A stretch of DNA of 64,000 nucleotides from Turnera subulata (lineage: Eukaryota > Streptophyta > Magnoliopsida > Malpighiales > Passifloraceae): positions 1 to 64,000 of the forward strand of contig JAKUCV010001955.1 in assembly GCA_028386065.3 (NCBI GenBank), in the 5' to 3' direction. The position numbers and the translations under genes are program-made. Every line of letters starts with the position of its first letter. Within the stretch, counting starts at the first letter, position 1. The notes beneath the pieces were generated by a model. The model was not told the origin of the DNA. It saw only the letters and a program-made list of their open reading frames with translations, and did no database searches. This document shows, in pieces, positions 31,401-62,843 of this stretch.

Positions 31401-32117
31401 TGGCAATTGACATGGTGGATTTGGGGATTGCTCAATGGTGCGCCATTGGTGTGGTACTGGTGCGATATTGGTGCGCCATTGGGGCGCTATTGTGGCGCCA
31501 TTGCTGCGCTATTGGTGCAATTTTTGAGTTTTGAGCTGAAATTTTGATCAAGCAGGAATAAAAATACAATCCAACAACCTGCAAAATTTCCGATTTTTAT
31601 AAGAAGTGGAAGTCCGAATTTTTATTTTTTCAACAATTAAAATCCCGTAAATCGGGAAAAAAGGAAAAGCACATTAGATGAGCTCAAAATGTCCGGCGAA
31701 GGCATCCAAAAAACCATATAAATCATCCCCATATTTTTGGAATCACAATAGGTAGCATTTTACATGGTGGATTTGGAGATTGCTCTGATGCATTGGTTCG
31801 CTGGCCATTGGTGCGCTATTGGGGCGCCATTGGCGCGCTATTGGTGCGCTATTGGTGCGATTATTGAGTGTTGAGCTGAAATTTTGTTTTTTGAGTTTTG
31901 AGCTGTACTTTTGTACACACAACAGTAAAACTCCAAAAATGGAAAAGCGCCTTAGATGAGCTCAAAAATGTTCGGGGAAGGCATCCAAAAATTTTTATAA
32001 ATCATCCCCATTTTTGTGGAATCGTCATAGGTAGCATTTGGCATGGTGGATTTGGAGATTGCTCTTATGCATTGGTTCACTGGGTGATTGGTGCGCTATT
32101 GGGGCGCCATTGGTGCG

Positions 32118-32816: not shown

Positions 32817-35654
32817 TGTTGGTTTCTTCTTGTACTCTTCTCCAAGCTTGATCATCTTGTCTTCTTGTAATTCTTGATTAATCCTAGCTTGGACAAAATG
32901 TAACATGTGGTTCTTGATCATCTTCAATCGAGCCCGTGTGATTGGTCCTTGAGGCAAGCTAATGGCGCCATCTCCATCCTCAGCTCCACTTGGTGCTTGC
33001 TTGTTTGCATCATTCCCTCCCTCCTCAAAAGGATTCGTCCTCGAATCTAAGCCTGCAATGTCAAAGGGAGAAAGATCAGCAACATTGAAAGTAGCACTCA
33101 CAGCATACTCACCAGGTAGATCTATCTTATAAGCATTGTCATTGATGCGCTCCAACACTTGAAAAGGGCCATCCCCTCGCGGATCCAACTTAGACTTCCT
33201 GTGATGAGGAAACCTTTCCTTCCTAAAGTGCACCCAAACCCAATCTCCAGGTTCAAACTTAACAAGCTTGCGTCCACGATTAGCTCGTTGTGCCACTTTA
33301 GTGTTCTTCTCCTCAATGTGCTTTCGAGCCTTCTCATGAATAGTCTTAACCAACTTAGCTCTTTGTTGCCCATCTACATTAACAATCTCTTTCAAAGGTA
33401 AAGGCAACAAATCCAAAGGGGTTAGTGGATTAAAACCATACACAATCTCAAACGGAGAATAACCTGTAGAAGAATGAATGCTCCTATTATAAGCAAACTC
33501 AATCAATGGCAAACAATCTTCCCAAGTTTTCAAGTTTTTGCCCACGACAGCACGCAATAAAGATCCTAAAGTTCTATTAACCACTTCCGTTTGACCATCA
33601 GTTTGAGGATGACAAGCAGTAGAAAACAACAACTTGGTCCCTAACCTACTCCATAAAACTCGCCAAAAGTGACTCAAGAACTTAGTATCCCTATCAGAAA
33701 CAATTGTCCTAGGAATGCCATGCAAACGAACTACATCCCTAAAGAACAAGTCAGCAACATGTGAAGCATCATCAGTTTTATGACAAGCAATAAAATGAGC
33801 CATTTTACTAAACCTATCAACAACAACAAAGATGCTATCACGACCTTTCCTGGTCCTAGGCAAACCAACCACAAAATCCATAGATAAATCAGTCCAAGGA
33901 ACATCAGGAACAGGTAAAGGAGTGTACAACCCATGAGGTTGCACCCTAGATTTGGCATGTCGACATGTGACACACCCATTACAAACCTGCTCAACATTCT
34001 TCTTCATATTAGGCCAATAAAAATGTTCCTGCAGAATGTCAAGGGTTTTAGCAATACCAAAGTGACCCATCAAGCCACCATCATGAGATTCCCTAACCAA
34101 AAGCTCACGCATAGAACAAGCAGGAATGCAAAGTTTATTCTCACGAAATAGATATCCATTATCTCTATAAAACTTTTGAAAACCAGATTGTTCACATGCT
34201 TCATACACATTAGCAAAGTCAGGATCAGACTTATACAAGTCCTTAATATACTCGAATCCAATCAACTTAGAACTAAGAGAAGAGATTAGAGCATACCTTC
34301 TTGATAACGCATCGGCAACCACGTTATCCTTACCTTGCTTATAGCGCACCACATAAGGGAATGTCTCAATGAATTCCAGCCACTTGGCATGCCTCTTATT
34401 CAGCTTACCTTGCCCTTTCAAATACTTCAGGCTTTCATGATCAGTGTGGATCACGAATTCCTTAGGCCACAGGTAATGCTGCCATGTTTGTAGTGCTCTC
34501 ACCAATGCATAAAGCTCCTTGTCATAGGTAGAGTAATTGAGTTGAGCTCCCTTCAGCTTCTCACTAAAGTAAGCAATAGGTTTCTTTTCCTGCAAAAGAA
34601 CAGCACCTATGCCTATACCAGAGGCATCACACTCAATCTCAAAGGTAGAATCAAAGTTAGGCAATTTAAGAATAGGAGCAGAACATAATTTCTCTTTCAA
34701 AGTTGCAAACGCCTGCGCCTGTGCATTACCCCACTTAAATCCAACTTCCTTTTTGACAATATCATTCAATGGTCCAGCAATGGTACTAAAATCTTTCACA
34801 AACCTTCTATAAAAACTAGCAAGTCCATGAAAAGATCTTACCTCAGAGATAGTAGTAGGCGTGGGCCACTCCTTAATGGCTTTCACCTTCTCTTGGTCAA
34901 CTTCTATCCCATTAGCACTAACAACATAACCAAGAAAGACAACACGATCCATGCAGAATGTACACTTCTTAAGCTTAGCAAACAACTTTTCAGCCCTAAG
35001 TGCATCCAACACTAGCCTAAGATGCTCCATATGCTCATCAACATTCTTGCTATAGATCAGAATATCATCAAAGTACACAACAACAAACTTCCCAATGAAA
35101 TGATGCAAGACATGATTCATTAAACGCATGAAAGTACTAGGTGCATTAGTTAACCCAAAAGGCATTACCAACCATTCATACAACCCATACTTTGTTTTAA
35201 ATGCAGTCTTCCATTCATCTCCAATTTTCATGCGAATTTGATGATATCCACTCATGAGATCAATCTTAGTAAATATGCATGCACCATGTAATTCATCAAG
35301 CATATCATCTAACCTAAGAATAGGATGGCGATACTTTACCGTTATTTTATTAACGGCGCGACAATCAACACACATGCGCCATGTTCCCTCCTTTTTCGGC
35401 ACTAGAATTACAGGTATAGCACAAGGAGAGAGGCTCTCACGAATCAGCCCCTTAGACAACAAGTCCTCGACTTGTGTTTGTATCTCCTTTGTCTCCTCCG
35501 GATTGGCCCTATATGCTGGCCGGTTAGGAATTTGAGCACCGGGAATGAAATCAATTTGATGCTCAATGCCCCTTAAAGGCGGCAACTCCCTTGGTAATTC
35601 CTCCAGAAAAACATCCACATAATCCTGCAAAAGAGAAACAACACAACTAGGCAA
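32787..35654 (-). CDS. pol: Gypsy pol: reverse transcriptase, RNase H, integrase
   Basis: This 955-codon open frame encodes the enzymes that copy the element's RNA into DNA and insert it. Visible signatures (numbered from 35654) are the RT active site YFDD at 194-197, preceded by MPFGLTNAP at 164-172; RNase H acidic residues at D343, E380, D405 and D448; the integrase zinc region (H524/H531 and CX2C near 558-564); and catalytic D593, D654 and E690. [15 protein letters not shown] segment (803-816) and a [12 protein letters not shown] segment (853-864) follow. The acidic linker and the basic GPITRARLK tail (903-911) replace a classical chromodomain. The first codon is TTG, so this is not a real start: the frame continues upstream through one TAG (35673-35675) into the protease linker. 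Apart from that stop, all the RT-to-integrase active-site residues listed are present. Confidence 0.9.
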
Positions 35655-35672
35655 GTCGAGGTTAAGGTCAGC

Positions 35673-36071
35673 CTAATTAAAATAAGCACCCTTGAATAAG
35701 AGTACTAACACTCCTCTCTTTTCTTCACAAGCTACCCTCAACTCTTTCATAGATGCATAGAAATTTTGTTTCTTCCTTCCCTCTTTTTTTCTCTCTTTGG
35801 TGTCGACAACACCCTCTCTTTTTTCTCTCTCTTTTTCTTTCTTTGCCTCTCCTTTTGCATGACTCTTAGTCATCCTCTCATCCTCACCATTGGTAGTGGC
35901 GGCATCCTTCTCCCTTTGCCATTCCTCCATGCTTTTCTTTAGGAACATTTGATCCTCATACACTTCTTTTGGAGGCAATGGTGCAAGTGATACTCTCCTT
36001 TCTCCCATGGTAAAAGAATACATGTTCTTAAACCCATCATGCACTACACGCCTATCATACTGCCATGGCCT
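35673..36071 (-). pseudogene. Gypsy pol: protease C-terminus and linker before RT
   Basis: The frame runs leftward from the assembly gap: PWQYDRRVVHDGFKN lies just left of it, and the ATG that opens at 36044 is only an internal methionine. This is the stretch between the aspartic protease and RT in gypsy polyproteins. A highly charged Lys/Glu segment follows (about 35750-35880). The frame ends at a TAG at 35673-35675 and then continues in the same frame into RT. One in-frame stop in an otherwise intact polyprotein looks like a nonsense mutation, although programmed readthrough cannot be excluded. The protease active site would lie in the gap. Confidence 0.7.
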
Positions 36072-36898
36072 NNNNNNNNNNNNNNNNNNNNNNNNNNNNN
36101 NNNNNNNNNNNNNNNNNNNNNNNNNNNNNNNNNNNNNNNNNNNNNNNNNNNNNNNNNNNNNNNNNNNNNNNNNNNNNNNNNNNNNNNNNNNNNNNNNNNN
36201 NNNNNNNNNNNNNNNNNNNNNNNNNNNNNNNNNNNNNNNNNNNNNNNNNNNNNNNNNNNNNNNNNNNNNNNNNNNNNNNNNNNNNNNNNNNNNNNNNNNN
36301 NNNNNNNNNNNNNNNNNNNNNNNNNNNNNNNNNNNNNNNNNNNNNNNNNNNNNNNNNNNNNNNNNNNNNNNNNNNNNNNNNNNNNNNNNNNNNNNNNNNN
36401 NNNNNNNNNNNNNNNNNNNNNNNNNNNNNNNNNNNNNNNNNNNNNNNNNNNNNNNNNNNNNNNNNNNNNNNNNNNNNNNNNNNNNNNNNNNNNNNNNNNN
36501 NNNNNNNNNNNNNNNNNNNNNNNNNNNNNNNNNNNNNNNNNNNNNNNNNNNNNNNNNNNNNNNNNNNNNNNNNNNNNNNNNNNNNNNNNNNNNNNNNNNN
36601 NNNNNNNNNNNNNNNNNNNNNNNNNNNNNNNNNNNNNNNNNNNNNNNNNNNNNNNNNNNNNNNNNNNNNNNNNNNNNNNNNNNNNNNNNNNNNNNNNNNN
36701 NNNNNNNNNNNNNNNNNNNNNNNNNNNNNNNNNNNNNNNNNNNNNNNNNNNNNNNNNNNNNNNNNNNNNNNNNNNNNNNNNNNNNNNNNNNNNNNNNNNN
36801 NNNNNNNNNNNNNNNNNNNNNNNNNNNNNNNNNNNNNNNNNNNNNNNNNNNNNNNNNNNNNNNNNNNNNNNNNNNNNNNNNNNNNNNNNNNNNNNNNN
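36072..36898. other. Assembly gap (827 N) inside the gypsy element
   Basis: The gap lies between the gag N-terminus and the protease C-terminus, so most of gag, its zinc knuckle and the protease active site are unseen. 827 bp is shorter than a typical gag plus protease, so the gap size may be an estimate or the element may be internally deleted. Open frames across the N run have no meaning. Confidence 0.95.
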
Positions 36899-47900: not shown

Positions 47901-50900
47901 TTTCAGAGATGTGGATGTCCGACGTCTTATTTTTTTGAAAAATTAAATTCCTGTAAGTCGGGAAAAATGGAAAAGCACCTCAGGTGAGCTCAAAATGTCC
48001 GAGAAAGGCATCCAAAAATCCCTATAAATCATCCCCATATTTGTGGGATCATCTAAGGTAGAATTTGACATGGTGGATATGGAGATTGCTCATATGCATT
48101 GGTTCACTGGGCCACTGGTGCGCTATTGGTGCGCCATTGGGGCGCTATTGGTCCGCTATTGGTGCGCCAATGGTGCGATTTTTGAGTTTTGAGCTGAAAT
48201 TTTTAATTTTGAATTTCGAGGTGAAATTTTGTACACACACCAATAAAAATCCAATCCAACTACCTGAAAAATTTCAAATTTTTCTGAGAAGTTGAAGTCC
48301 GAATTTTTTTTTTGGAACAATTAAAATCCCGTAAATCAGAAAAATTGGAAAAGCACCTCAGATGAGCTCTAAATGACCGGGAAAGGCATCCAAAAACACT
48401 GATAAATCATCCCCATATTTGTGTCATCTTAGGTAGCATTTGACAGGGTGGATTTGGAGATTTCTCATTGGTGCGCCATTGGGGCGCTATTGGCGCGCCA
48501 TTGGTGCACCATTAGGGCGCTATTGCGTCGATTTTGAGATATGAGCTGAAATTTTAATTTTTGAGTTGTAGCTGAAATTTTTACACTCACCAATAAAAAT
48601 CCAATCCATCTACCTGCAAAATTTGAGATTTTTCTGAGATGTGGATGTCCGACGTCTTAGGTAGCATTTGACATGGTGGATTTGGAGAATGCTCTTTTGC
48701 ATTGGTTCACTTGGCTATAGGTGCGCTATTGGGGCGCCATTGGTGCGCCATCGGTGCTCCAATGGTGCGATTTTTGAGTTTTGAGCTGAAATTTTTAATT
48801 TTGAATTTCAAGGTGAAATTTTGTATACACACCAATAAAAATCCAATCCAACTACCTGCAAAATTTCAGATTTTTCTGAGAAGATGAAGTCCGAATTTTT
48901 TTTTGGAACAATTAAAATCCCGTAAATTGGGAAAATTGGAAAAGCACCTCAGATGAGCTCAAAATGACCTGGAAAGGCATCCAAAAATACTTATAAATCA
49001 TCCCCATATTTATGTCATCTTAGGTAGCATTTGACAGGGTGGATTTGGAGATTTCTCATTGGTGCGCCATTGGTGCGCTATTGGCGCGCCATTGGTGCAC
49101 CATTAGGGCGTTATTGCGTCGATTTTTGAGATATGAGCTGAAATTTTAATTTTTGAGTTTTGAGCTTAACTTTTTACACTCACCAATAAAAATCCAATCC
49201 ATCTACCTGCAAAATTTGAGATTTTTCTGAGATATGGATGTCCGACGTCTTGTTTTTGGAACAATTAAAATCCTGTAAATCGGGAAAAATGGAAAAGCAC
49301 CTCAGATGAGCTCAAAATGTCCGGAGAAGGCATCCAAAAATGCTTATAAATCATCCCCATACCTGTGGGATCATCTTAGGTAGAATTTGACATGGTGGAT
49401 TTCGAGATTGCTCTTATGCATTGGTTCACTGAGCCATTGGTGTGCTATTGGTGCGCCACTGTTGCGCCAATGGGGCGTCATTGGGGCGCTATTGGGGCGG
49501 TATTGGTTCGCCATTGGTGCTATTTTTGACTTTTGAGGTGAAATTTTGCACACTCGCCAATCAAAATCCAATCCAACTACCTGCAAAATTTCAGAATTTT
49601 CTGAGATGTGGATGTCCGACGTTTTATTTTTGGAACAATTAAAATCCCGTAAATCGGGAAAATTGGTAAAGCACCTCAGATGAGCTCAAAATGTCCGGGG
49701 ATGACATCAAAAAATCCTTATAAATCATCCCCATATTTGTGGAATCATCTTAGATAGCATTTGATTGGGTGGATTTGGAGATTGCTCACTGGTGCGCCAT
49801 TGGAGCGCTACTGGGACGATTTTTGAGTTTTGTGCTGAAATTTTGATTTTTGAGTTTTGAGTTGAACTTTTTGCACACACCAATAAAAATACAATCCAAC
49901 TACCTGCAAACCTTCAGATTTTTCTGAGACGTAGAAGTCCGACTTTTTATTTTTGGAACAATTAAAATCCCATAAATCGGGAAAATGGAAAAGCACGTCA
50001 GATTAGCTCAAAATTTCAGGGGAAGGCATCAAAAAAACCTTACAAATCATCGCCATATTTGTGGGATCTTCTTAGGTCGCATTTGACATGGTGGATTTGG
50101 AGATTGCTCTTATGCATTGGTTCACTGGGCCATTGGTGCGCAATTGGGGCGCCATTGGTGCGATTTTTGAGTTTTGAGCTGAAATTTTGTACACACACCA
50201 ATAAAAATCCAATCCATCTACCTGCAAAATTTTAAATTTTTCTGAGAAGTGGAAGTCCAACTTTTTATTTTTGGAAGAATTAAAATCCCGTAAATCGGGA
50301 AAAATGGAAAAGCACCTCAGATGAGCTCAAAATGTCCAGGGAAGGCATCCCAAAATCCTTATAAATCATCCCCATATTTAAGGAAACATCTTAGGTAGCA
50401 TTTGACAAGTTGGATTTGGAGATTGCTCTTATGTTTTGGTTCACTGGGCCATTGGTGTGCTATTGGTGCGCCATTGGGGCGCCATTGGGGAGCCGTTGGA
50501 GCGATTTTTGAGTTTTGAGCTGAAATTTTGATTTTTGAGTTTTGAGCTGAACTTTTTGCACACTCCAATAAAAATACAATCCAACTACCTGCAAAATATC
50601 AGAAATTTCTGAGACGTGGAAGTCCCCATATCTGTGGGATCATCTTATGTAGCATTTGACATGGTGGATTTTGGAGATTACTCTTACGCATTCGTTCACT
50701 GGGCCATTGGTGCGCCATTGGGGCGCCATTCGGGCGCCAATGGTGCGATTTTTGAGTTTTGAGCTGAAATTTTGTACGCACACCAAGAAAAATCCAATGC
50801 AACTACCTGCAAAATTTTCAGACTTTTCTGTGAAGTTGAAGTCCGATTTTTTTTTTTGGAACAATTAAAATTCCGTAAATCGGGAAAATTGGAAAACCAC

Positions 50901-51404
50901 CTGAGATGAGCTCAAAATGTCCGGGGATGGCATCCAAAAATCCTTATAAATCATCCCCATATTTGTGGATGCATCTTAGGTAGCATTTGACAGGGTGGAT
51001 TTGGAGATTTCTCATTGGTGCGCGATTGGTGCACTATTGGCGAGCCATTGGTGCACCGTTGGGGCGCTATTGGCGAGCCATTGGTGCACCGTTGGGGCGC
51101 TATTGCGATAATTTTTGAGATATGAGCTGAAATTTTGATTTTTAAGTTTTGAGCTGAACTTTTTACACTCACCAATAAAAATCTAATCCATCTACTTGCA
51201 AAATTTGTGATTTTTCTGAGATGCGGATGTCCGACGTCTTATTTTTGGAAGAATTAAATTCTAGTAAATCCGGAAAATTGGAAAAGCACCTCAGATGAGC
51301 TCAAAATGTCCGGGAAAGGCATCCAAAAATCCCTATAAATCATCCCCATGTTTGTGGGATCATCTAAGGTAGCATTTCACATGGTGGATTTGGAGATTGC
51401 TCAT

Positions 51405-51998
51405 ATGCATTGGTTCACTGGGCCAATGGTGCGCTATTGGTGCGGTATTGGGGCGCTATTGGGCTGCTATTGGTGCGCCATTGGTGCGACATTGGTGCAA
51501 TTTTTGAGTTTTCAGCTGAAATTTTGATTTCTGAGTTTTGAGGTGAAATTTTTGTACACACACCAACAAAAATTCAATCCAACTACCTGTAAAATTTCAG
51601 ACTTTTCTGAGATGTTGAAGTCCGAATTTTTTTTAGGAACAATTAAAATCCCGTAAATCGGGAAAATTGGAAAAGCACCTCAGATGAGCTCAAAATGTCC
51701 AATGCATTGGTTCACAGGGCCATTGGTGCGCTATTGGTGCGGTATTGGGGCGCTATTGGGCCGCTATTGGTGCGCCATTGGTGCGACATTGGTGCAATTT
51801 TTGAGTTTTCAGCTGAAATTTTGATTTCTGAGTTTTGAGGTGAAATTTTTGTACACACACCAACAAAAATTCAATCCAACTACCTGTAAAATTTCAGACT
51901 TTTCTGAGATGTTGAAGTCCGAATTTTTTTTAGGAACAATTAAAATCCCGTAAATCGGGAAAATTGGAAAAGCACCTCAGATGAGCTCAAAATGTCCA
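51405..51998 (+). repeat. 297-bp truncated monomer duplicated in tandem
   Basis: 51405-51701 and 51702-51998 are almost identical, sharing GTGCGGTATTGGGGCGC and AATTTTTTTTAGGAAC. The joint AAATGTCC/AATGCATTGG drops the usual GGGGAAGG-to-GGAGATTGCTC part of the monomer, so the second copy lacks about 80-90 bp. The high identity indicates a very recent slippage or unequal exchange. Confidence 0.85.
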
Positions 51999-53015
51999 GG
52001 GATAGCATCCAAAAATCCTTATAAATCATCCCCACATTTGTGGAAGCATCTTAGGTAGCATTTGACAGGGTGGATTTGGAGATTTCTCATTGGTGCGCGA
52101 TTGGCGCCCCATTGGTGCACCGTTGGGGCGCTATTGCGACCATTTTTGAGATATGAGCTGATATTTTCCTTTTTAAGTTTTGAGCTGAACTTTTTACACT
52201 CACCAATAAAAATCCAATCCTTCTACTTGCAAAATTTGAGATTTTTCTGAGATGTGGATGTCCGACGTCTTATTTTTGGAAAAATTAAATTCCCGTAAAT
52301 CGGGAAAAATGGAAAAGCACGTCAGAAGAGCACAAAATGACCGGGAAAGGCATCCAAAAATCCCTATAAATCATCCCCATATTTGTGGGATCATCTTAGG
52401 TAGCATTTGACATGGTGGATTTGGAGATTGCTCTTATGCATTGGTGGGCCATTCGTGCGCTATTGGTGCGCCATTTTTGAGATATGAGCTGAAATTTTGA
52501 TTTTTGAGTTTTGAGCTGAAATTTTGTACACACACCAATAAAAATCCAATCCAACTACCTGCAAAATTTTAGATTTTTCTGGGATGTTGAAATCCGAATT
52601 TTTTTTTTGGAACAATAAAAATCCCGTAAATCGGGAAAATTGGAAAAGCACCTCAGATGAGGTAAAAATGTCCGGGGAAGGCATCCAAAAATGCTTATAA
52701 ATCTTCTCCGTATTTTTGGGATCATCTTAGGGAGAATTTGACAGGGTGGATTTGGAGATTGCTCTTATGCATTGGTTCACTTGGCCATTTGAGCGCTATT
52801 GGGGCGCCATTGGAGCGCTATTGGAGCGCCATTGGGGCGCTATTGGTGCGCCAATGGTGCGATTTATGAGTTTTGAGCTGAAATTTTCATTTTTGAATTT
52901 TGAGGTGAAATTTTGTACACACACCAATAAAAATCCAATCCAACTACCTGCAAAGTTTCAGATTTTTCTGAGAAGTTGAAGTCCGAATTTTTCTTTTTGG
53001 AACAATTAAAATCCC

Positions 53016-53020
53016 CGGGA
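53016..53020. repeat. Left target duplication CGGGA of the copia-derived element
   Basis: CGGGA lies directly before the LTR terminus TGTTAGAACA. The same five bases follow the right LTR at 61698-61702. Joining the flanks gives the monomer context AAAATCCC-CGGGA-AAGTTGG, so the insertion hit the right arm of the monomer's dyad, in a variant that had lost the GTAAAT between the arms. Confidence 0.9.
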
Positions 53021-54671
53021 TGTTAGAACAATAGCCCTTCGCTAGAGGGGGGGTGAATAGCTATAATCAAATAAAAACAAAATAAGCAGGAATTAAATGC
53101 GGAATTGAAAGAATGAAGGACAAAAGCAATTTATCCTGGTTCACACACACTCTACTAGTGTGGCTAATCCAGCCCTTCAAGTCTCACTTGAAGATTTCAC
53201 TATCTACGTTAAGCTTACGGGTGCTTAACAAACCGTTTACAACCTAGGAATTCTAGTCACAAGAATCCTAAACCTGAGAGTTCAAGTCACATGAACCTCA
53301 GCACTCTTGCTTGAAGATACCTTACTTCAAGACTTCTCACACAAGAAGATATACCCTCTTCCTATGAATCTTAACAAGGGAACTAACCTCCCTTAAGGTG
53401 TATGAATATACAATTCAATCACTCAAACAAAGAACTCTCTCAAAGAGCAGATATGAGTATACAAGTAAAGCTCTAAAAGGCAACTCTCAAATCCTCAATA
53501 GGATATTGGCTCAATAATAATTTTGATGAATGTATGGAATGAATGCTTGAATGTTGAGAGTTGATTGTTTTAATCAGAGCTGAAAATACTCAATCTATAG
53601 CTCTGAAAAGTCACAGAGCCGTTTAAAATCCACTCAAGAAAAAGCTTTAAACAAAACATAGTGGGTGCTAAAAAATTGTCAGCAACAACGGCCATAACAT
53701 CGATGTTTTAATTCTCAACATCGATGTTTTGTCCAGTAGATTTGAATTATTGAACTAACGGTAACTAAAACATCGATGTTCTAAATCCTAACATCGATGT
53801 TATTTTGGTTCGGCAAAGTTAATTAAAACTGATGATCTTTGAAACATCGATGTTTAGAACTTGAACATCGATGTTATTTTGGTTCGGCAAAATTCTTTTG
53901 AAAACTGACCACCATAGAACATCGATGTTTCTTTCAAGAACATCGATGTTATTTTGCTTCGACAAAATTAATTAAAAAAAATGACCATTGAAGAACATCG
54001 ATGTTTAATTTACAACATCAATGTTTTGATTAGGTGAAAGTATTTTCAAATGCAACGGTCATGAGAACATCGATGTTTGGGAAGCCAACATCTATGTTTT
54101 GAGCCTACTGCCAACTTTTGGAAAAATGCTTGAAATCAAGAACATCGATGTTTATGCCATAACATCGATGTTATTTTGGTTCGGCAAAAATCCTTTTAAA
54201 GTGACTGGAAAGAAACATCGATGTTATTTTTGAGGACATCGATGTTATGTCTGATTTTAAAACCAACGGTCACTAGAACATCGATGTTTGGAATGCCAAC
54301 ATCGATGTTATTTGCCTACTGCCTGTTTTGAAGGATTTTGCAAAGGCAGGAACATCGATGTTTAAATTCACAACATCGATGTTCTTGGCTCGGAAAACAT
54401 TTATATGCATGGAAATATGTTATGTGATGCATGAGCAAATTTTATCTTATTTTGAGCCAATGTCCTAGAAGAGTTGAGTGTTATACCTTGTACAAATTTA
54501 TGAATCTAACTCTTCTTTTCTTGGCTCTTCTATCTTGTGCTCATTCACTTTGATCCTTTGCTCTTGANNNNNNNNNNNNNNNNNNNNNNNNNNNNNNNNN
54601 NNNNNNNNNNNNNNNNNNNNNNNNNNNNNNNNNNNNNNNNNNNNNNNNNNNNNNNNNNNNNNNNNNNNNNN
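53021..54671 (-). repeat. 3' LTR of the copia-derived element (last 104 bp in gap)
   Basis: It begins TGTTAGAACAATAGCCC and aligns with the right LTR at a constant offset of 7,026 bp until the gap at 54568. The end at 54671 is inferred from the 1,651-bp length of the other copy. Two of its 20 palindromes have decayed at the central CpG (ACATCAATGTT near 54014, ACATCTATGTT near 54087). Confidence 0.85.
53696..54383. repeat. Array of ten AACATCGATGTT pairs, 3' LTR
   Basis: Pairs start at 53696, 53769, 53843, 53918, 53994, 54066, 54141, 54214, 54277 and 54351. Within a pair the two 12-bp palindromes start 21 bp apart (eight pairs) or 20 bp apart (two). Successive pairs are 72-76 bp apart, with one 63. 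The 8-9 bp inside each pair differs every time, while the palindromes are nearly invariant. Remnants of a common unit (TTTTGGTTCGGCAAA, CAACGGTCA) lie between pairs, so the array grew by tandem duplication and then diverged everywhere except the palindromes and their spacing. Confidence 0.9.
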
Positions 54672-54848
54672 NNNNNNNNNNNNNNNNNNNNNNNNNNNNN
54701 NNNNNNNNNNNNNNNNNNNNNNNNNNNNNNNNNNNNNNNNNNNNNNNNNNNNNNNNNNNNNNNNNNNNNNNNNNNNNNNNNNNNNNNNNNNNNNNNNNNN
54801 NNNNNNNNNNNNNNNNNNNNNNNNNNNNNNNNNNNNNNNNNNNNNNNN
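54568..54848. other. Assembly gap (281 N)
   Basis: The gap hides the last 104 bp of the left LTR (by comparison with the right one), the polypurine tract, and the C-terminal end of the ORF that reads in from the right. The reading frames that cross the N run are artefacts. Confidence 0.95.
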
Positions 54849-55791
54849 TAGCGGCAGGAGCTGGAGGAGTGGGTGCTGGAAGAGCTAGGAGTGGAGGAAC
54901 TTCTTCTTGTGCATGCCTTGGGGCTTCCTCGGATGGGTGTGTGTGAAAAGTGGCATCATTAATTGCCCAAAGTTTGGAGTGAGTAGTTTGAGTTCCTTCA
55001 AAGGGAGTCAGTCCTGCACTCAAACAGATATTCACAACCAGAAAGGCATAGGGAAGAGGATGGTTGTTGGTCGTGTGCTCGGCCATGTGCTGGAGTACGA
55101 ATCGTGCCCAATTAATTGGAGCTCCGTGAATAATGGCGTGCAGAACTTTTTCATCCTCAATCGTGAAGTTGGTGTGATTACCAGCTCTGGGTTTGATCAC
55201 CCGAGTAAGCAAATAGAAAAGCACTCTGTATTCCGGGTTGATTGAGTGAATTGTTGGCCGATTGGAGCGATTACGGCGCACTTCAGTGAAACCGAGATCA
55301 GACAACAACTGGGTTTCTTGGAGAGTAAGGAAATGATCACCTCCATAAGTGACGATGTCATCGCCTTGGACAGGTAGGCCTGCAATCTGTCCAAATTGCT
55401 CCAATGTCACTTGAAAGCTTCTTCCATTGACGCTGGCAGAGAGGACATCACCGTCACGATGAAGGGTTGTGTAGAAGGCGCGGATGAAGTCCGGATTGAA
55501 ATGGTATTGCTTCCTCGTCACAAAGTCCCAGAGATGGGATTCCCGTAAGTGACGTTCAAGATTAGCAAAGTGCCTCTTCCGTGGGTAATCTTCTGGTAGA
55601 TATCGAGGAGAAGTGATGGCGCGAGTTGCGTAGAAGGATTTGTAGTGTGTAAGCTCATCTTTGGTACGAAACCAAATTTCGGAATTGGGCACAGAGTATT
55701 TGTGAGGAGCACTTGAGGATCCACCCTTTTTCTGGGCGTGATGTTCATGAGCAACTTGTTTGCCCTTAGAACGATGTTTGTCACCCGCCAT
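54849..55791 (-). CDS. Plant-specific 'putative transposon protein' ORF, C-terminus in gap
   Basis: The ATG at 55791 opens a frame of 314 visible codons. An upstream in-frame extension has no ATG, so this start is preferred. Residues 1-35 are basic and Gly/Ser-rich. A globular domain follows at about 38-265, with segments such as FIRAFYTTLHRDGDVL (102-117) and TLEQFGQIAGLP (129-140). A Pro/Ala tail (296-314) then enters the gap. The domain resembles the Pfam family described as a putative plant transposon protein (PF20167, from memory), which is frequent in non-autonomous plant LTR elements and has no established function. It has its own TATA box upstream and lies where pol would be in a complete element. 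Confidence 0.65.
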
Positions 55792-55905
55792 TATAGAAGG
55801 AAGAAAGGAAAGGAATTGTGTTGTTTGTGTGTTGTAAAGGGATGAATGGAGATGGGGATGATTGTTCAGAAGGTTACAGAGTAAGAAGCAAGAGGAGAAG
55901 CATGG

Positions 55906-55913
55906 TTTATATA
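55906..55913 (-). promoter_or_regulatory. TATA box upstream of the plant-specific ORF
   Basis: The minus strand reads CACTATATAAACC, 115 bp before the ATG at 55791, giving a leader of about 85-90 nt. An internal promoter is unusual for an LTR element. Palindrome pairs begin about 80 bp further upstream (55991 onward), in the position of proximal regulatory sites. Confidence 0.5.
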
Positions 55914-55990
55914 GTGAGGCTCTGAAAGTAGCCGTTGGGTAGCCGTTGCAATGCTCCAACGGCTATTTTTTTTTTGAAAAATTTTCGTTA

Positions 55991-56526
55991 AACATCGATG
56001 TTGTCCTACGAAACATCGATGTTTGATGATGCTCAGTCAGTGAAACATCGATGTTCTGAAAATAACATCGATGTTTTCAACGGTCGGCTGAAAAACATGC
56101 ATAGCTCAACGGCTATATTTTTGAACCTGCAACGGGCTAAACATCGATGTTTTTATAGGCAACATCGATGTTTTATGTACTCTGCCAAATTTCATGTTTA
56201 ATCAAAATGGTTAAACATCGATGTTGGTCCTCAAAACATCGATGTTTTGGACTTTCGGAAATTAAGAGAAATAGTGCAAACATCAATGAGTTTTGAAGAC
56301 TTACCTCAACATCGATGTTGTGATACTCAACATCGATGTTATTACATTTTGATTGATGTCTTGATTGTCCTCTGGATGAAACAAAATGGTTCTCTTGATT
56401 AAACATCGATGTTGTACTGTGAACATCGATGTTGTACTGTGAACATCGATGTTTTCCGGCCACTGGTCCAATTGCTTCAATCTGAATTGTTAAAACATCG
56501 ATGTGTATGGTAACAACATCGATGTT
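55991..56526. repeat. Palindrome array upstream of the plant-specific ORF (15 copies)
   Basis: Copies start at 55991/56012, 56044/56064, 56140/56161, 56214/56235, 56308/56329, 56402/56422/56442 (a triplet) and 56494/56515. Every adjacent spacing is 20 or 21 bp, as in the LTRs. Distances between groups (53-96 bp) are looser than in the LTRs, and the intervening sequence shows little similarity to the LTR array. So the internal spacing rule holds even where the surrounding unit is lost. Confidence 0.9.
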
Positions 56527-57015
56527 GTTGATGTACCAGATTTTTGTTCCCCCTTTCTTTTGGCCTTAGTGAGGGGTACCTGCCAAACATAGTTAGACGA
56601 GCCTCGGGTGCTCAAGTTAGCAAAGATAATACACTAGTTTTAGTAAGATAAAACATATGTAGCAATTTTAAGGATAGTAAGATGGCCTCTGCCTCCAAGA
56701 ATTATTGTCTTGGATTTCCATCCTCCCGGGATGAAGAGGTATCTCCTTGTCGTGAGTATACCGGGCTCGAGAAAAAGTCTTGTCAGTTGGACTTTGGGTG
56801 CCTCTGATGCCTAACTAATCAGACTGTGAGTTCCGTGATGAATCAATAATGCAGTTTAGGCCATGATTTTCAACAAAGCAGACACTTGATTATCTGAAAA
56901 ATTGGATGTTAGCAATAAATGAATTTGCAAGTGTCTCAAAAAGGAGATTCTTGGAAATCGAAGCGGTTTGGAAGGGCCTTCCTCTGAACGTTGGTCATGA
57001 TACTCCAAGGATAGG
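56527..57015. other. Stretch with no recognised gene, inside the element
   Basis: I see no long frame, palindrome copy or similarity to the satellite here. It lies upstream of the plus-strand unit and may be its captured distal promoter. Its base composition and lack of satellite match suggest that it came with that unit. Confidence 0.4.
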
Positions 57016-57073
57016 TAGGGGTCACCTTCTGAACACTGCTGGACACTTCAGAAATTTGTAGGGGTCACCTTCT
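57016..57073 (+). promoter_or_regulatory. Direct repeat TAGGGGTCACCTTCT x2 upstream of a TATA box
   Basis: The same 15 bp occurs at 57016-57030 and 57059-57073, 43 bp apart (about four helical turns), ending 28 bp before a strong TATA box. Paired upstream elements in this position look like a real plant promoter rather than element filler. I cannot name the factor. Confidence 0.5.
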
Positions 57074-57100
57074 TAGAGAAGAGGCAATGCAATTATGTTT

Positions 57101-57110
57101 CTATAAATAG
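57101..57110 (+). promoter_or_regulatory. TATA box CTATAAATAG for the plus-strand unit
   Basis: This is a near-perfect plant TATA box on the strand opposite to the element. It predicts transcription from about 57130-57140, roughly 120 bp before the open frame. With the upstream direct repeat and the downstream AATAAA (58003), it defines a complete gene-like unit. Confidence 0.6.
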
Positions 57111-57257
57111 ACATACGTTAGAGCTTAAGAAACACAAAAAGTTTATAATCCAATTTCAGAAAGAGAGTTTAGCAAAAAAAAAATATCAAAAGCAAAACTG
57201 TCTTCCCCTTCCTCCGTCTTTTTTGTTGAGGGTGCAAATGTAGGTAGGAGAAATCGG

Positions 57258-57881
57258 TTGGCCTTCAGCATTGTAAATGAGGAACAAGGGCCATTGCTAG
57301 AGGAACTAGCAAGAAGTCCCCGTCTTGTCTTCGTAGACGAGATTTATTCTTCCCGATTCTTTGTCACCCCTATGGAAGAAGTCATCTTCCTGGAACATCA
57401 ACAATCCCTGCGAGCTTCCTACTATGGTACGGCTAATTCCACAATGTTCTTTATTTCTGACAGGTTTCAGGAGCTTCAGTTGGAACCAACCTACCAGACT
57501 TTGAACGAGGGCAGTTATTATCAGATTACAATGACAGCTCAGAGCATTCCTCGAGTTGCTGGAGTAGCGCCTACTTGGCCAAAGGTTCGCCTTTTGGTGT
57601 GGAACTGCAGGGGTATCACAACACGTTCCCAAGATTTTGTCCGAATCCTGCGAGACCTGAAGAACCAATATAAACCTAATATGGTTCTGCTTACCGAGAC
57701 TCAATGGCAGCAAACCGGAAACCACGGAGTTATCCCTCTTCGCTTTCCACCAACACATCGGTTCGAGCTTCCTGCCCAGAACAACTCGGGTGGAATGTGG
57801 TTTGCTTGGAGTCATTGCATTAGGGTTAACATAGTCAATACTTCTAATGGCTTTACTGTAACAGCTGAACCGAATCGTTAG
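57258..57881 (+). CDS. Captured gene-like ORF with truncated endonuclease (EEP) motif
   Basis: This open frame runs antisense to the retroelement. Residues 1-105 are unrecognised. Residues 109-187 (VRLLVWNCRG, then VLLTETQ, then GGMWFAW) match the start of LINE-type endonuclease/exonuclease/phosphatase domains, with Asn115 and Glu147 at the first two catalytic positions. The frame stops at residue 207, well before the Tyr, Asp and His positions of a full domain, so no nuclease activity is expected. It opens at TTG; no in-frame ATG precedes codon 39 (57372), and the first AUG of the predicted transcript (57238) is followed at once by TAG. It could be a decayed capture or a shorter protein starting at 57372. 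A promoter and poly(A) signal bracket it. Confidence 0.5.
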   Translation: MAFSIVNEEQGPLLEELARSPRLVFVDEIYSSRFFVTPMEEVIFLEHQQSLRASYYGTANSTMFFISDRFQELQLEPTYQTLNEGSYYQITMTAQSIPRVAGVAPTWPKVRLLVWNCRGITTRSQDFVRILRDLKNQYKPNMVLLTETQWQQTGNHGVIPLRFPPTHRFELPAQNNSGGMWFAWSHCIRVNIVNTSNGFTVTAEPNR

Positions 57882-58002
57882 AAGCAGATAATAATTGTAA
57901 TGAATATGTATGATGTAATTCTGCATTTCTTGTTTGTAAGTGTGATTGTAAAATATATATGATGTAATCGAATGTGTGTGTGTGCTTTCAATCTTTATAA
58001 TC

Positions 58003-58008
58003 AATAAA
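58003..58008 (+). terminator. AATAAA poly(A) signal of the plus-strand unit
   Basis: AATAAA lies 122 bp after the stop codon, preceded by TGTAA-rich sequence (57895-57967) of the kind found in plant far-upstream elements. Its position supports a complete antisense transcription unit of about 0.9 kb. From here to 58225 I see nothing recognisable. Confidence 0.45.
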
Positions 58009-58225
58009 AGTATTTGTGTTTTCAGCATGTGTATGACATAAAGTTCTTCCTGTGTGAGTGTTCATCAATTTGATCAATTGTGCACTAACTACATGCTTTG
58101 CTTAAATTGAAAGAGATCTGAATATTCTTCCTGAAACATTTTGTCATGAACATGCTACCTAAAGTTCTTAACGTTAAGTGAGAAAGTTAACTTATTTCTA
58201 AGCTGTGAAAATGTAACAAAGGCAG

Positions 58226-58537
58226 AACATCGATGTTCAAGAATGAGATATCGATGTTTTTTACTACTAGACAGAGATTTTAAACAGCTTGGAATGAATA
58301 ACATCGATGTGTAGAAAACGAACATCGATGTTTAAAGACTACTGGAAAAATAAAGTTCTTACCGAACATCGATGTTTGATACAAAACATCGATGTGCATG
58401 CTTGATTTATGGCTTGGCAGTTCTCATGGGAACATCGATGTTGATCACAAAACATCAATGTTTTACAGCTACTGGTTGGAAAATCAGGTGAGCTGAAAAT
58501 CACAGAACATCGATGTTTCTTGTTAAACATCGATGTT
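58226..58537. repeat. Five palindrome pairs next to the gag truncation point
   Basis: Pairs start at 58226/58247, 58300/58321, 58365/58385, 58431/58451 and 58506/58526. Spacing is again 20 or 21 bp. Several copies carry one or two changes (ATATCGATGTT, ATCGATGTG, ATCAATGTT). The array ends about 40 bp from the end of the protease remnant, so it sits at the joint between copia-derived and acquired sequence. Confidence 0.85.
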
Positions 58538-58574
58538 GTCACCTATTGGTCCGGTTTTGCACTATCACTTAGTC

Positions 58575-58670
58575 TTAAATTTTGGATGCTTCTTTGGTCA
58601 TTTGCTTGGAGCATCCGCAATCAAGGTACCAAAGTACACTTGATGCCTTCAAGCATACCTGCAAAACAAA
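58575..58670 (-). pseudogene. Remnant of the copia protease, active-site region only
   Basis: After the TGA that ends gag (58671-58673), the same frame continues for 31 codons to a TAA (58575-58577). It includes VLWYLDCGCS, which matches the region around the aspartic protease active site of copia elements, with Cys in place of the usual Ser of the D-S/T-G triad. Everything downstream (the rest of protease, integrase, RT and RNase H) is missing. This is the breakpoint where pol was lost. Confidence 0.6.
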
Positions 58671-59990
58671 TCAAAAGGATTTCGGTACCCAAATCTTTTT
58701 GGGTCCTTGAGAGTGAGTAGATACATCCTGATGATAGACTTTATCTTGTACCCTATGTCTATGCCTAGTAAAATATACCGGGGCAATGTGACCTATCCTA
58801 TTACAATAGTGACAAATAACATTAGAATTATGCATCCTCCTAGGTTGATAGTAGTTGTTGTTTTGTTTATGTTTGTAATCTCTACTTAACTTGTCTTGCC
58901 TAGGTATAATCTTGTTTTCCCTAAGTTGAGTCACATGTTTCTTAGGTTTAGTAAAATGAGAACTTTCATTTTTAGCGCTGTGTACATGTGATCGTGCAAC
59001 ATTAGCATTTGATGTAACATTGTAGGCATACAATTTAGCATAGTGAGCTCTTCCATTACTTGCACTTGGTTTGGCATTTTGAGCATATATCCTTCTATAA
59101 TGAATGTGTGATCTTGTGTTATGTGCATGTGTTTTAGCACGTTCATATGATGTAGTATGGTAAGTAGAGCATGAGGCACCAGGTTTATATGTCTTAGCAT
59201 TATGCACAACAGGTTTGACATCATTTGATACATGAGATGCACCTAATCCTTCTCTTTGTGTTGGACTTCTTTGTTGTCCTAGAAGAAGATTAAGACTACC
59301 TCTACCATTAGTAAATTTCTCTAATGTTTTCTTCAAATCATCAACTTGATGCTTAAGAGATTCATTCTCTTTTCCCAGTACAACACAAGCGCATACATTA
59401 GAGGATATCTTCTCATTAAGTTCATTGCAAGACATATTAAGAGCATGCTTTTCCTTTTCGAGCTTATCATTTTCACTTGATAACTTATCTTTATCATTAG
59501 ATAATAATTCTACATTATTTTCTAAGGTCTTGTTATGTTTCTTTAAGTTCTTATTAACATTTGAGACAGAAATGAATTTACTATACAATTCATTATATGC
59601 ATTTTGCAGCTCTTCAAATGTATAATCATCACTCGAATAGGAAGTACTTACCTCTTCCGGAGATTCTTCCTTTACCATGAAACAAAGATTGACAGTCTCA
59701 TCTTGCTTGCTGTCGGTTTCCTCATAGATGGTTCCCAGCATTTCCCACATCTCCTTGGCTGTTGCACAGCGCGAGATTATTTGATAGTCATCTTCGTTGT
59801 ACCCCACTTCCGACCTTATTGGAACTTGAACACCATTCTTTATCACCAGCCAAGCTGCGAAATTGTTGGCTTGGATGAAAATTCTCATCCTTTCCTTCCA
59901 ATATGCATAATTTGTCCCGTCAAAGAACGGTGCTTGGGTAATGGATTGCCCTTCAGTGATTCCTGCATACAAATAACTTGAACAAGCCAT
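58671..59990 (-). CDS. gag: Copia-type Gag, damaged
   Basis: The 439-codon frame starts with a true ATG 42 nt after the primer-binding site. It encodes the structural protein that would package element RNA. Residues 20-50 (FFDGTNYAYWKERM, then AAWLVI) are the N-terminal copia Gag signature. The following UBN2-type region appears internally shortened: the part after about residue 90 jumps to an acidic segment. Residues 140-228 are heptad-rich and likely coiled coil. Residues 260-340 hold irregular His/Ala/Tyr-rich repeats. The zinc knuckle at 393-406 reads CX2CX4HX4 then Tyr, so the last Cys is lost. It ends GPKKIWVPKSF just before the protease remnant. RNA binding through the knuckle is therefore doubtful. 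Confidence 0.8.
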   Translation of the reverse strand: MACSSYLYAGITEGQSITQAPFFDGTNYAYWKERMRIFIQANNFAAWLVIKNGVQVPIRSEVGYNEDDYQIISRCATAKEMWEMLGTIYEETDSKQDETVNLCFMVKEESPEEVSTSYSSDDYTFEELQNAYNELYSKFISVSNVNKNLKKHNKTLENNVELLSNDKDKLSSENDKLEKEKHALNMSCNELNEKISSNVCACVVLGKENESLKHQVDDLKKTLEKFTNGRGSLNLLLGQQRSPTQREGLGASHVSNDVKPVVHNAKTYKPGASCSTYHTTSYERAKTHAHNTRSHIHYRRIYAQNAKPSASNGRAHYAKLYAYNVTSNANVARSHVHSAKNESSHFTKPKKHVTQLRENKIIPRQDKLSRDYKHKQNNNYYQPRRMHNSNVICHYCNRIGHIAPVYFTRHRHRVQDKVYHQDVSTHSQGPKKIWVPKSF

Positions 59991-60031
59991 AGAAATTTTC
60001 CTCTCAAACGGTTAGGTCTTTCAGAGAGTTA

Positions 60032-60044
60032 GGCTCCGCTACCA
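60032..60044 (-). other. Primer-binding site, variant of the initiator-Met type
   Basis: Two bases inside the 5' LTR, the minus strand reads TGGTAGCGGAGCC. The usual plant initiator-Met primer site is TGGTATCAGAGC; ten of twelve positions agree. The position is exactly right for a minus-strand element. The two changes may weaken priming or may match another tRNA. Confidence 0.75.
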
Positions 60045-60721
60045 ATTGTTAGAACAATAGCCCTTCGCTAGAGGGGGGGTGAATAGCGATAATCGAATAA
60101 AAACAAAATAAGCAGGAATTAAATGCGGAATTGAAAGAATGAAGGACAAAAGCAATTTATCCTGGTTCACACACACTCTACTAGTGTGGCTAATCCAGCC
60201 CTTCAAGTCTCACTTGAAGATTTCACTATCTACGTTAAGCTTATGGGTGCTTAACAAACCGTTTACAACCTAGGAATTCTAGTCACAAGAATCCTAAACC
60301 TGAGAGTTCAAGTCACATGAACCTCAGCACTCTTGCTTGAAGATACCTTACTTCAAGACTTCTCACACAAGAAGATATACCCTCTTCCTATGAATCTTAA
60401 CAAGGAAACTAACCTCCCTTAAGGTGTATGAATATACAATTCAATCACTCAAACAAAGAACTCTCTCAAAGAGCGGATATGAGTATACAAGTAAAGCTCT
60501 AAAAGGCAACTCTCAAATCCTCAATAGGATATTGGCTCAATAATAATTTTGATGAATGTATGGAATGAATGCTTGAATGTTGAGAGTTGATTGTTTTAAT
60601 CAGAGCTGAAAATACTCAATCTATAGCTCTGAAAAGTCACAGAGCCGTTTAAAATCCACCGAAGAAAAAGCTTTAAACAAAACATAGTGGGTGCTAAAAA
60701 ATTGTCAGCAACAACGGCCAT

Positions 60722-61409
60722 AACATCGATGTTTTAATTCTCAACATCGATGTTTTGTCCAGTAGATTTGAATTATTGGACTAACGGTAACTAAAACATC
60801 GATGTTCTAAATCCTAACATCGATGTTATTTTGGTTCGGCAAAGTTAATTAAAACTGATGATCTTTGAAACATCGATGTTTAGAACTTGAACATCGATGT
60901 TATTTTGGTTCGGCAAAATTCTTTTGAAAACTGACCACCATAGAACATCGATGTTTCTTTCAAGAACATCGATGTTATTTTGCTTCGACAAAATTAATTA
61001 AAAAAACTGACCATTGAAGAACATCGATGTTTAATTTACAACATCGATGTTTTGATTAGGTGAAAGTATTTTCAAATGCAACGGTCATGAGAACATCGAT
61101 GTTTGGGAAGCCAACATCGATGTTTTGAGCCTACTGCCAACTTTTGGAAAAATGCTTGAAATCAAGAACATCGATGTTTATGCCATAACATCGATGTTAT
61201 TTTGGTTCGGCAAAAATCCTTTTAAAGTGACCCGAAAGAAACATCGATGTTATTTTTGAGGACATCGATGTTATGTCTGATTTTAAAACCAACGGTCACT
61301 AGAACATCGATGTTTGGAATGCCAACATCGATGTTATTTGCCTACTGCCTGTTTTGAAGGAATTTGCAAAGGCAGCAACATCGATGTTTAAATTCACAAC
61401 ATCGATGTT
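60722..61409. repeat. Array of ten AACATCGATGTT pairs, 5' LTR
   Basis: This is the same array as in the other LTR, shifted by 7,026 bp (pairs from 60722 to 61377). Here 19 of the 20 palindromes are perfect; the exception, GACATCGATGTT near 61261, is shared with the other LTR and so predates insertion. Each pair can form a 12-bp stem with an 8-9 nt loop in RNA from either strand. Confidence 0.9.
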
Positions 61410-61435
61410 CTTGGCTCGGAAAACATTTATATGCA

Positions 61436-61441
61436 TGGAAA
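61436..61441 (-). promoter_or_regulatory. Probable LTR TATA box
   Basis: The minus strand reads CATATAAATG. It is the best TATA-like match I found in the LTR. Transcription from about 61405 would put the palindrome array in the first 700 nt of the RNA, followed by the primer site and gag, giving a leader of about 1.4 kb. Confidence 0.45.
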
Positions 61442-61697
61442 TATGTTATGTGATGCATGAGCAAATTTTATCTTATTTTGAGCCAATGTCCTATAAGAGT
61501 TGAGTGTTATACCTTGTACAAATTTATGAATCTAACTCTTCTTTTCTTGGCTCTTCTATCTTGTGCTCATTCACTTTGATCCTTTGCTCTTGAATGGTTG
61601 GATTGATTTGCCTTCATTTCAATTCATTTCTTTTTGCTTCCTGAATAGTTTGTCAATATCAAAACCTATAAGAAGCAGGGAGGCATTAGTTTCAACA

Positions 61698-62843
61698 CGG
61701 GAAAGTTGGAAAAGCACCACAGATGAGCTCAAAATGTCCGGGGATGGCATCCAAAAATCCTTATAAATCATCCCCATATTTGTGGAATCATCTTAGGTAG
61801 CATTTGACAGAATGGATTTGGAGATTGCTCATTGGTGCGGCAGTGTGGCGCTACTGGGACGATTTTTGAGTTTTGAGCTGAAATTTTGATTTTTGAGTTT
61901 TGAGCTGAAATTTCTGCACACATCAATAAAAATACAATCCAACTACCTGCAAAATTTCAGAATTTTCTGAGACGTGGGTGTCCGACTTTTTATTTTTGGA
62001 ACAATTAAAATCCCGTAAATTTGTAAAAATGGAAAAGCACCTCAGATGAGCTCAAAATATCCGGGGAAGGCATCCAAAAAACAATACAAATCATTCCCAT
62101 AATTGTGGGTTCATCTTAGGTAGCATTTGACATGGTGGATTTGGAGATTTCTCTTATGCATTGGTTCACTGGGCCATTGGTGCGCCATTGGTGCGCTATT
62201 GGGGCGCCATTGTTGCGCCATTGGTGCAATTTTTGAGTTTTCAGCTGAAATTTTGTACACACAACAATAAAAATCCAATCCAACTACCTGAAAAATTTTA
62301 AATTTTTATGAGATGTGGAAGTCCAACTTTTTATTTTTGGAAGAATTAAAATCTCGTAAATCGGGAAAAATGGAAAAGCACCTCATATGAGCTCAAAATG
62401 TCCGGGAAAGGCATCCAAAAATCCTTATAAATCATCCCCATATTTGTGGAATCATCTTAGGTAGCATTTGACAGGATGGATTTGGAGAATTCTCATTGGT
62501 GCGCCATTGGGGCGCTATTGCCACGATTTTTGAGATATGAGCTGAAATTTTGATTTTTGAGTTTTGAGCTGAAATTTTGTACACACACCAATAAAAATCC
62601 AATCCAACTACCTGCAAAATTTTAGAATTTTCTGAGATGTTGAAGTCCGAATTTTTTTTTTTGGAACAATTAAAATCCCGTAAAACGGGAAAATGGGAAA
62701 AGCACCTCAGATGAGCTCAAAATCTCCGGAGATGGCATCCAAAAATCCTTATAAAGCATCCCCATATTTGTGAAATCATCTTAGGTAGCAAATGACAGGG
62801 TGGAATTGAGATTGCTCTTATGCATTGGTTCACTAGGCCATTG
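61698..62843 (+). repeat. Satellite block 3
   Basis: About three monomers continue block 2 after the retroelement, in the same orientation and subfamily. The first five bases are the right target duplication CGGGA. The block ends inside the last monomer at ACTAGGCCATTG, the start of its 11-bp patch, where LINE sequence begins. Confidence 0.9.

Follow-up and report, generated by a model that had tools for sequence, protein, structure and literature searches.

Paired and helically spaced palindrome arrays in LTR retrotransposons of Turnera subulata, a candidate DNA-bound regulatory module

Sireviruses carry palindromic, high-copy RM boxes in the upper half of their long terminal repeats (LTRs), before the TATA box, and a further group of boxes precedes the env-like gene; the boxes stay while their flanks diverge (Bousios et al. 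2010, PMC2829016; here and below, statements on this and the other cited papers refer to the parts available to us). Twelve of the 13 RMs listed there have a CGG-CCG core, the exception being tobacco Tnd-1 (ACAATCGATTGT, eight copies), and RMs are called Sirevirus-specific and absent from classic elements (PMC2829016). In maize Sireviruses, palindromes of the sequence CACCGGACNNNGTCCGGTG form clusters in the LTR control region; they have a predicted secondary structure and are linked with small RNAs (Bousios et al. 2016, as cited in PMC10760457). Here we describe arrays of a different 12-bp palindrome, AACATCGATGTT, in an LTR retrotransposon of Turnera subulata. The element lies in a 64,000-nucleotide stretch (GenBank assembly GCA_028386065.3, contig JAKUCV010001955.1, positions 1 to 64,000, forward strand), which we call the window.

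An initial annotation of the window had reported about 65 copies of the palindrome, all paired at 20-21 bp except for one triplet, and our count agrees with it. We found 65 copies (56 exact, eight with one mismatch and one with two) between 53696 and 61409 and none beyond, while the chance expectation for the exact sequence in 64 kb is about 0.004 (an arithmetic estimate with equal base frequencies). All 65 lie within one 8,677-bp LTR element (53021-61697), and all are grouped in pairs or in the sole triplet (starts 56402, 56422 and 56442), with start-to-start distances of 20 or 21 bp. Each LTR holds 20 palindromes in 10 pairs, and two internal arrays hold 15 (55991-56526) and 10 (58226-58537). 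Because the two LTR arrays are copies of one array, the 40 LTR palindromes count as 20 independent ones. With up to two mismatches allowed, the palindrome was absent from the 55,323 bp of the window outside the element and from two 10-kb stretches whose choice did not depend on it.

The 518.7-Mb assembly from which the window comes holds 29,517 exact pairs at 20-21 bp, against 15 matches to a reversed control pattern; these and the other whole-genome counts of repeats are lower bounds. Viral contigs scanned for the pair gave no match. We then examined 148 kb around the first matches in contig order on ten contigs, which is not a random sample, and obtained, together with the window, 25 clusters of at least three palindromes. 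When the palindromes were masked, the array regions formed groups without mutual match at E 1e-6, the few between-group matches tracing to neighbouring elements in the 700-bp flanks. The arrays belong to three or four LTR-retrotransposon families: F1, with nine LTR clusters (in the window element, W, and at C3, C15, C23, C24 and C28) and four internal ones; F2, with nine clusters (C8, C20, C16); F3, with two (C12, C23); and F4, with one (C27). Judged by its sequence, F1 bears the marks of a Sirevirus, namely the C-rich signal, a polypurine tract followed by AT/TG and extra tracts. The pol of F2 (C20) is 45-46% identical to that of F1 and the pol of F3 (C28 as stand-in) about 35%; from these identities we class F2 and F3 as Copia lineages other than F1. 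F4 carries a PF03732 gag flanked by the copies of an 828-bp repeat, apparently its LTRs. Segments between pairs were only slightly more similar between families than shuffled segments (16.9 versus 14.2 of 38 for F1-F2; 18.5 versus 14.2 for F2-F3), values that neither demonstrate nor rule out a common origin of whole units.

The gaps between palindromes sit, with few exceptions, on multiples of about 10.5 bp. We pooled 193 gaps shorter than 100 bp from F1-F4, with near-identical segments removed and one 1,563-bp gap set aside. They fell at 18-22 bp (101 gaps), 30-32 bp (5), 41-46 bp (17), 51-55 bp (63), 58 bp (1), 63 bp (1) and 73-76 bp (5), and none of these de-duplicated gaps measured 23-29, 33-40 or 47-50 bp. 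The best period was 10.65 bp for between-pair gaps and 10.75 bp for all gaps, with a phase of 0.05 bp at 10.5. The same gap classes appeared in separate listings of F1, F2, F3 and F4 (nine gaps in the last), and all pair distances up to 130 bp, here not de-duplicated, held the period (R 0.75 at 10.6, 0.08 at 9.5). A partner at 18-22 bp was present for 255 of the 278 palindromes with at most one mismatch (both window LTRs counted). Genome-wide, exact pairs on the ladder numbered 3,666 at 30-32 bp and 20,973 at 51-55 bp; off the ladder there were 765 at 22-29 bp, 1,177 at 33-40 bp and 1,730 at 46-50 bp. Inspection by eye revealed that 42 of 50 listed places at 33-40 bp are two steps via a middle palindrome, exact or nearly so, and that 43 of 50 listed places at 46-50 bp are likewise sums via a middle palindrome.

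Short words recur at fixed offsets from the palindromes. CTACTG was found in 21 of 90 between-pair segments, compared with 1.4 in shuffles, and 18 of its 22 placed instances start 5-6 bp after a palindrome, an offset seen in the LTR and internal arrays of F1 and in F2 and F3, but not in F4. Across the genome, the palindrome followed by N5-6 CTACTG occurred at 4,535 sites (2,271 forward, 2,264 reverse), whereas a control shifted by 4 bp (N9-10 CTACTG) occurred at two (one forward, one reverse). GCCGAA ends 7 bp before a palindrome in 11 of 12 cases (F1, F2, F3). AACGG, the core of the MSA site to which plant 3R-MYB proteins bind, was enriched in the F1 arrays (15 versus 1.9 in shuffles) and in the F1 internal arrays plus promoter stretch (13 versus 1.6).

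The families differ in where the array is placed. In F1 it lies in U3 and ends about 100 bp before the TATA position in all six aligned LTRs, the TATA box being canonical in four. In F2 it occupies U5, past the TATA box and near the primer site, and in F3 and F4 (one locus each) it lies past the primer site, in the 5' leader. Within F1, the order of array A, TATA box and ATG upstream of a PF20167-type gene was found in three of three elements (W, C24, C15), with a weak TATA box in one. The genes of C24 and C15 are related to the open reading frame (ORF) of the window by tblastn (E 1e-76 and 3e-82), and the truncated C24 gene piece had no Pfam match at 1e-3.

The F1 layout is that of the Sirevirus RM-box system: its palindromes lie upstream of the TATA position in 6/6 LTRs and, as array A, upstream of the gene in env position. 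As in Tnd-1 (PMC2829016), the core of the window palindrome is ATCGAT, and the F1 relatives share the Tnd-1 polypurine tract with its terminal A. Unlike most RM boxes, the window palindrome has no CGG-CCG core, and unlike boxes described as Sirevirus-specific, it is shared by the Copia families F2 and F3 and by F4 with its PF03732 gag (PMC2829016). The arrays resemble those of maize Sireviruses in forming palindrome clusters in the LTR control region with predicted secondary structure, and differ from them in sequence and in that the maize palindromes have been discussed in terms of folding and small RNAs (as cited in PMC10760457). New relative to the available description of RM boxes is a PF20167-type gene in env position with its own unit of array and TATA box. 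The available parts of PMC2829016 make no mention of strict pairing or helical phasing, and in the open-access literature searched we found no description of strict pairing, the helical ladder, a fixed CTACTG partner or sharing across families. The initial annotation was aware of no described system with this layout. That holds only in part, since RM boxes come close; strict pairing was not found described, although our priority for it is not certain. The available main text of the Turnera genome paper (PMC9862265) does not contain the string 'palindrom'. Literature matches to the 12-mer, concerning the glucocorticoid receptor and protein-DNA complex modelling in the parts available, were judged to be chance.

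We compared how fast the parts of the arrays diverge. Between LTRs of one family, the arms differed at 5.5% (F1) and 6.3% (F2) of positions, the rest of the LTR at 25.6% and 22.9%, between-pair segments at 46.0% and 38.0%, and spacers at 57.4% and 45.8%. Single comparisons of arms against the rest varied, among them W/C23 (0.0% versus 28.5%), C24/C3 (4.5 versus 17.7) and C8a/C20b (7.3 versus 13.5). Spacers were distinct in 100 of 110 de-duplicated pairs. Arm changes fell mostly at the outermost positions (62/98), and all 13 at the central CpG were transitions of the kind caused by methylation. Between the two LTRs of the window element, 2 of the 16 differences fall in arms, where about 2.5 are expected. 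Arms decaying as fast as spacers, which the initial annotation had named as a refutation of selection on the arms, were not seen between families or lineages. Within the single inserted copy the arms decay like the rest, as they would in any copy once inserted. We read this pattern as suggesting selection on the arms in the active lineage and neutral decay in dead copies.

Taken together, we think it probable that the arrays are enhancer-like DNA cis-regulatory modules, bound on one face of the helix by a protein that we predict. A dimeric sequence-specific protein would bind each 12-bp palindrome, and neighbouring dimers, spaced by two to five or more turns of the helix, would stack on one DNA face and bind cooperatively. 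In F1-F3, the composite unit would include a second site, CTACTG or TTCGGC read outward, whose distance to the palindromes is fixed at 5-7 bp, and in F1 it would also take in the AACGG motifs. The array would control LTR transcription, from U3 in F1 and from downstream of the start in F2-F4, and would in F1 also serve a second promoter, that of the PF20167-type gene; the bound factor would presumably activate. DNA sites for a protein had been one of the two readings offered by the initial annotation, and it gains from the helical quantising within and between pairs and from the partner word at fixed offset. Since unrelated families share the site, a host factor is our first guess. We propose more tentatively, with somewhat less than even confidence, that one trans-acting factor, whether host or element-encoded, could be the common key to transcription in several unrelated retrotransposon families. 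These families would have converged on the array, or exchanged it by recombination, and put it within reach of their promoter, in U3, U5, the leader or the internal gene.

Several observations weigh against a DNA-bound regulatory array. The arms were defined by at most two mismatches in one member of each comparison, and the 10-15% of arm letters that fell on gaps were set aside. Part of the near-random look of the spacers comes from the loss, gain and reordering of pairs within arrays, through which non-matching units are aligned, and this rearrangement inflates spacer mismatch (64.5% in C23/C28). The arm advantage is small in C8a/C8d (12.9% versus 14.2%) and C23/C28 (3.9% versus 6.5%), and in C8e/C8f the arms differ by 1.2% and the rest by 0.8%. 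The ladder has exceptions too. By eye, 8 of the 50 places listed at 33-40 bp have direct gaps of 35, 37 or 40 bp, one segment accounting for five of the eight, and 7 of the 50 listed at 46-50 bp have direct gaps of 47 or 50 bp; these direct gaps are mostly off the ladder. One F1 sublineage also has an 18-bp step. Many gaps stem from a duplicated unit of about 74 bp and are thus not independent, so we give no probability for the pooled figure; a permutation on the distinct gap values of the window only gave p 0.004 (0.02 once they were collapsed). Enrichment of AACGG is confined to F1, and the motif is absent from array B, F2, F3 and F4. Finally, the arrays of F2, F3 and F4 lie in an apparently transcribed leader, where a role in RNA is also possible.

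That role was the other reading of the initial annotation, in which a pair forms a hairpin with a 12-bp stem and a loop of 8-9 nt. Such hairpins in the RNA of the element might serve its packaging, dimerisation or translation. The arrays of F2-F4 do lie in the leader and are probably transcribed, maize Sirevirus palindrome clusters attract small RNAs (as cited in PMC10760457), and the strand folds at -232 kcal/mol (z -18.6 versus 20 shuffles). Such a strong single-strand fold is, however, expected of any set of identical palindromes, and the lowest-energy predicted fold joins many distant palindromes rather than partners. A hairpin requires complementary arms, not arms that are palindromic or identical in every pair. 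Among 98 mutated arm positions in 131 pairs, 10 were compensated, 16 had the same change in both arms and 72 had neither, and hairpins give no ground for the 10.5-bp ladder between pairs or for the 4,535:2 offset preference of CTACTG. Hairpins therefore did not hold up as the explanation, which we regard as very unlikely; a DNA-bound composite array fits better, with an added effect in RNA possible. We consider it least likely of all that the arrays are a neutral minisatellite homogenised by unequal exchange or template switching, with arms that seem conserved because they are recombination sites. Pair number and order do vary between close copies, the arms are neutral after insertion (2/16 LTR differences), and C8e/C8f show no arm advantage and C8a/C8d little. 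Homogenisation would, however, carry the spacers along, yet 100 of 110 pairs have distinct ones; the same arm and pairing are found in all of F1-F4, and the CTACTG offset in all but F4, within array regions that are otherwise unmatched; and no helical ladder is predicted.

The palindrome could instead be the target of an anti-silencing or activator protein encoded by an element, possibly the PF20167-type protein of F1, with other families taking up the array to profit from it. VANDAL elements are DNA transposons. VANC21 binds a 9-base motif in dense arrays in non-coding parts of its own element, the targets evolve through tandem repetition, and an unrelated element that has the VANC6 motif is acted on by VANC6 (PMC5735166). 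The palindromes resemble these motifs in being short and densely arrayed in non-coding parts of an element and in their fast turnover, and would resemble them in serving an unrelated element with the same motif (PMC5735166); in three of three elements an array lies directly upstream of the PF20167-type gene. The VANC motif YAGTATTAY is, in contrast, arrayed in one orientation and its binder is element-encoded, while the window motif is palindromic and helix-phased, features absent from the available description of VANC motifs (PMC5735166). Pfam names no DNA-binding domain for the PF20167 ORF, its single-sequence AlphaFold model was unusable (pLDDT 42.5), and tblastn found no relative of it in the F2-F4 stretches, of which the F3 and F4 elements are only partly covered. 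We regard an element-encoded binder as unlikely.

The window consists of plant satellite DNA holding one LTR retrotransposon (53021-61697, minus strand), identified by its LTR pair, flanking duplication and ORFs. It is a Sirevirus-type Copia element without a pol ORF, no pol-sized frame appearing in the ORF listing of the window element. A 5-bp duplication, CGGGA, stands on either side (53016-53020 and 61698-61702), and the LTRs differ by 16 substitutions over 1,547 aligned bp, which points to a fairly young insertion. Read along its sense strand, the element contains the 5' LTR with its array, primer site, gag-like ORF, array B, an antisense endonuclease-like ORF, array A, a TATA box, the PF20167 ORF, an assembly gap and the 3' LTR. 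The 5' LTR (60047-61697, minus strand; 1,651 bp, TG...CA) has a C-rich signal 21 bp from its 3' end; the 3' LTR (53021-54567, minus strand) has lost its remainder in the gap (N, 54568-54848). Their arrays, like the internal ones given without strand, hold the same 10 pairs at 60722-61409, in U3 upstream of a TATA-like box, and at 53696-54383. That box, TATAGATT (60618-60625, minus strand; second copy 53592-53599), was placed by the six-LTR alignment about 95 bp downstream of the LTR array. Four of five relatives have TATAAATA or TATATATT at the aligned position, which is degenerate in C28. Another candidate, CATATAAATG, just upstream of the window LTR array, was dropped in favour of the downstream box as it was unconserved in the five relatives. 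The C-rich integrase signal ends the window LTR as ATTCACCCCCCCTCTAG plus 21 nt, and the C-run is intact in four of six aligned F1 LTRs (W, C15, C24, C28) and altered in C3 and C23. The site of the polypurine tract in the window is lost in the gap, so the tract is known from F1 relatives only: C24 has a terminal AGGGGGAA-AT/TG with two more tracts less than 100 bp upstream; in C15 the terminal tract differs by one base (AGGGGGGA-AT/TG), and the 125 bp before it hold two further tracts.

The primer binding site TGGTAGCGGAGCC (60032-60044, minus strand) is followed by the gag-like ORF (58671-59990, minus strand), which has weak Copia gag matches below the Pfam cut-offs and, by eye only, a degenerate zinc-knuckle-like stretch. 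Internal array B (58226-58537) has five pairs and lies between the gag 3' end and the antisense ORF. Array A (55991-56526) has six pairs and the triplet and lies about 77 bp upstream of the TATA box TATATAAA (55906-55913, minus strand), a layout that is the same in C24, with a weaker TATA in C15. The arrays cannot be coding sequence, as the 20- and 21-bp pair spacings break the frame. The PF20167 (Transposase_32) ORF (54850-55791, minus strand; Pfam E 3.6e-16) ends inside the gap, and by its position we infer that it is the Sirevirus env-like gene. A protein search found three relatives, all from Turnera subulata, with 55-85% identity. The relative C15 has gag and pol domains and a relative of this ORF split over two frames.

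The antisense ORF (57129-57881, plus strand) matches PF03372 below the cut-off and looks like the beginning of an endonuclease domain; upstream of it, at 57100, TCTATAAATAG may be a TATA box. The ORF has relatives in C15 (91% amino acid identity) and C24 (70%); an ORF maintained antisense within an LTR element is unusual. In the C15 LTR array (L020:3651-4189), 11 of 16 arms end in C (AACATCGATGTC type), direct rather than complementary, and look as if one variant unit had expanded. Segments between palindromes like CAGTAAGTATTTTTCTTCCCAG (L027:8740-9199, L029:5093-5519) resemble 5' and 3' splice sites placed too close for a normal intron. Around the element, a tandem satellite of about 330 bp with short 11-bp sub-repeats (GCCATTGGAGC type) covers 50000-53020 and 61698-62800. 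Relative to the remainder of the window, the GC skew flips sign at 32000-36000, adjoining a gap (N, 36072-36898), and this reversal is probably another inserted element.

If the arrays are DNA-bound modules, they would offer a natural ladder, with thousands of test cases for how helix spacing relates to cooperative binding in plants. A 33-bp bait would then be a direct handle on the protein that switches on several retrotransposon families, and the suggestion made in 2010 that RM boxes are regulatory would become a sharp prediction, namely that half-turn shifts should break function. It would also have to be asked how a single control module came to be present in several families. A common key would mean tens of thousands of identical binding strips in one plant genome.

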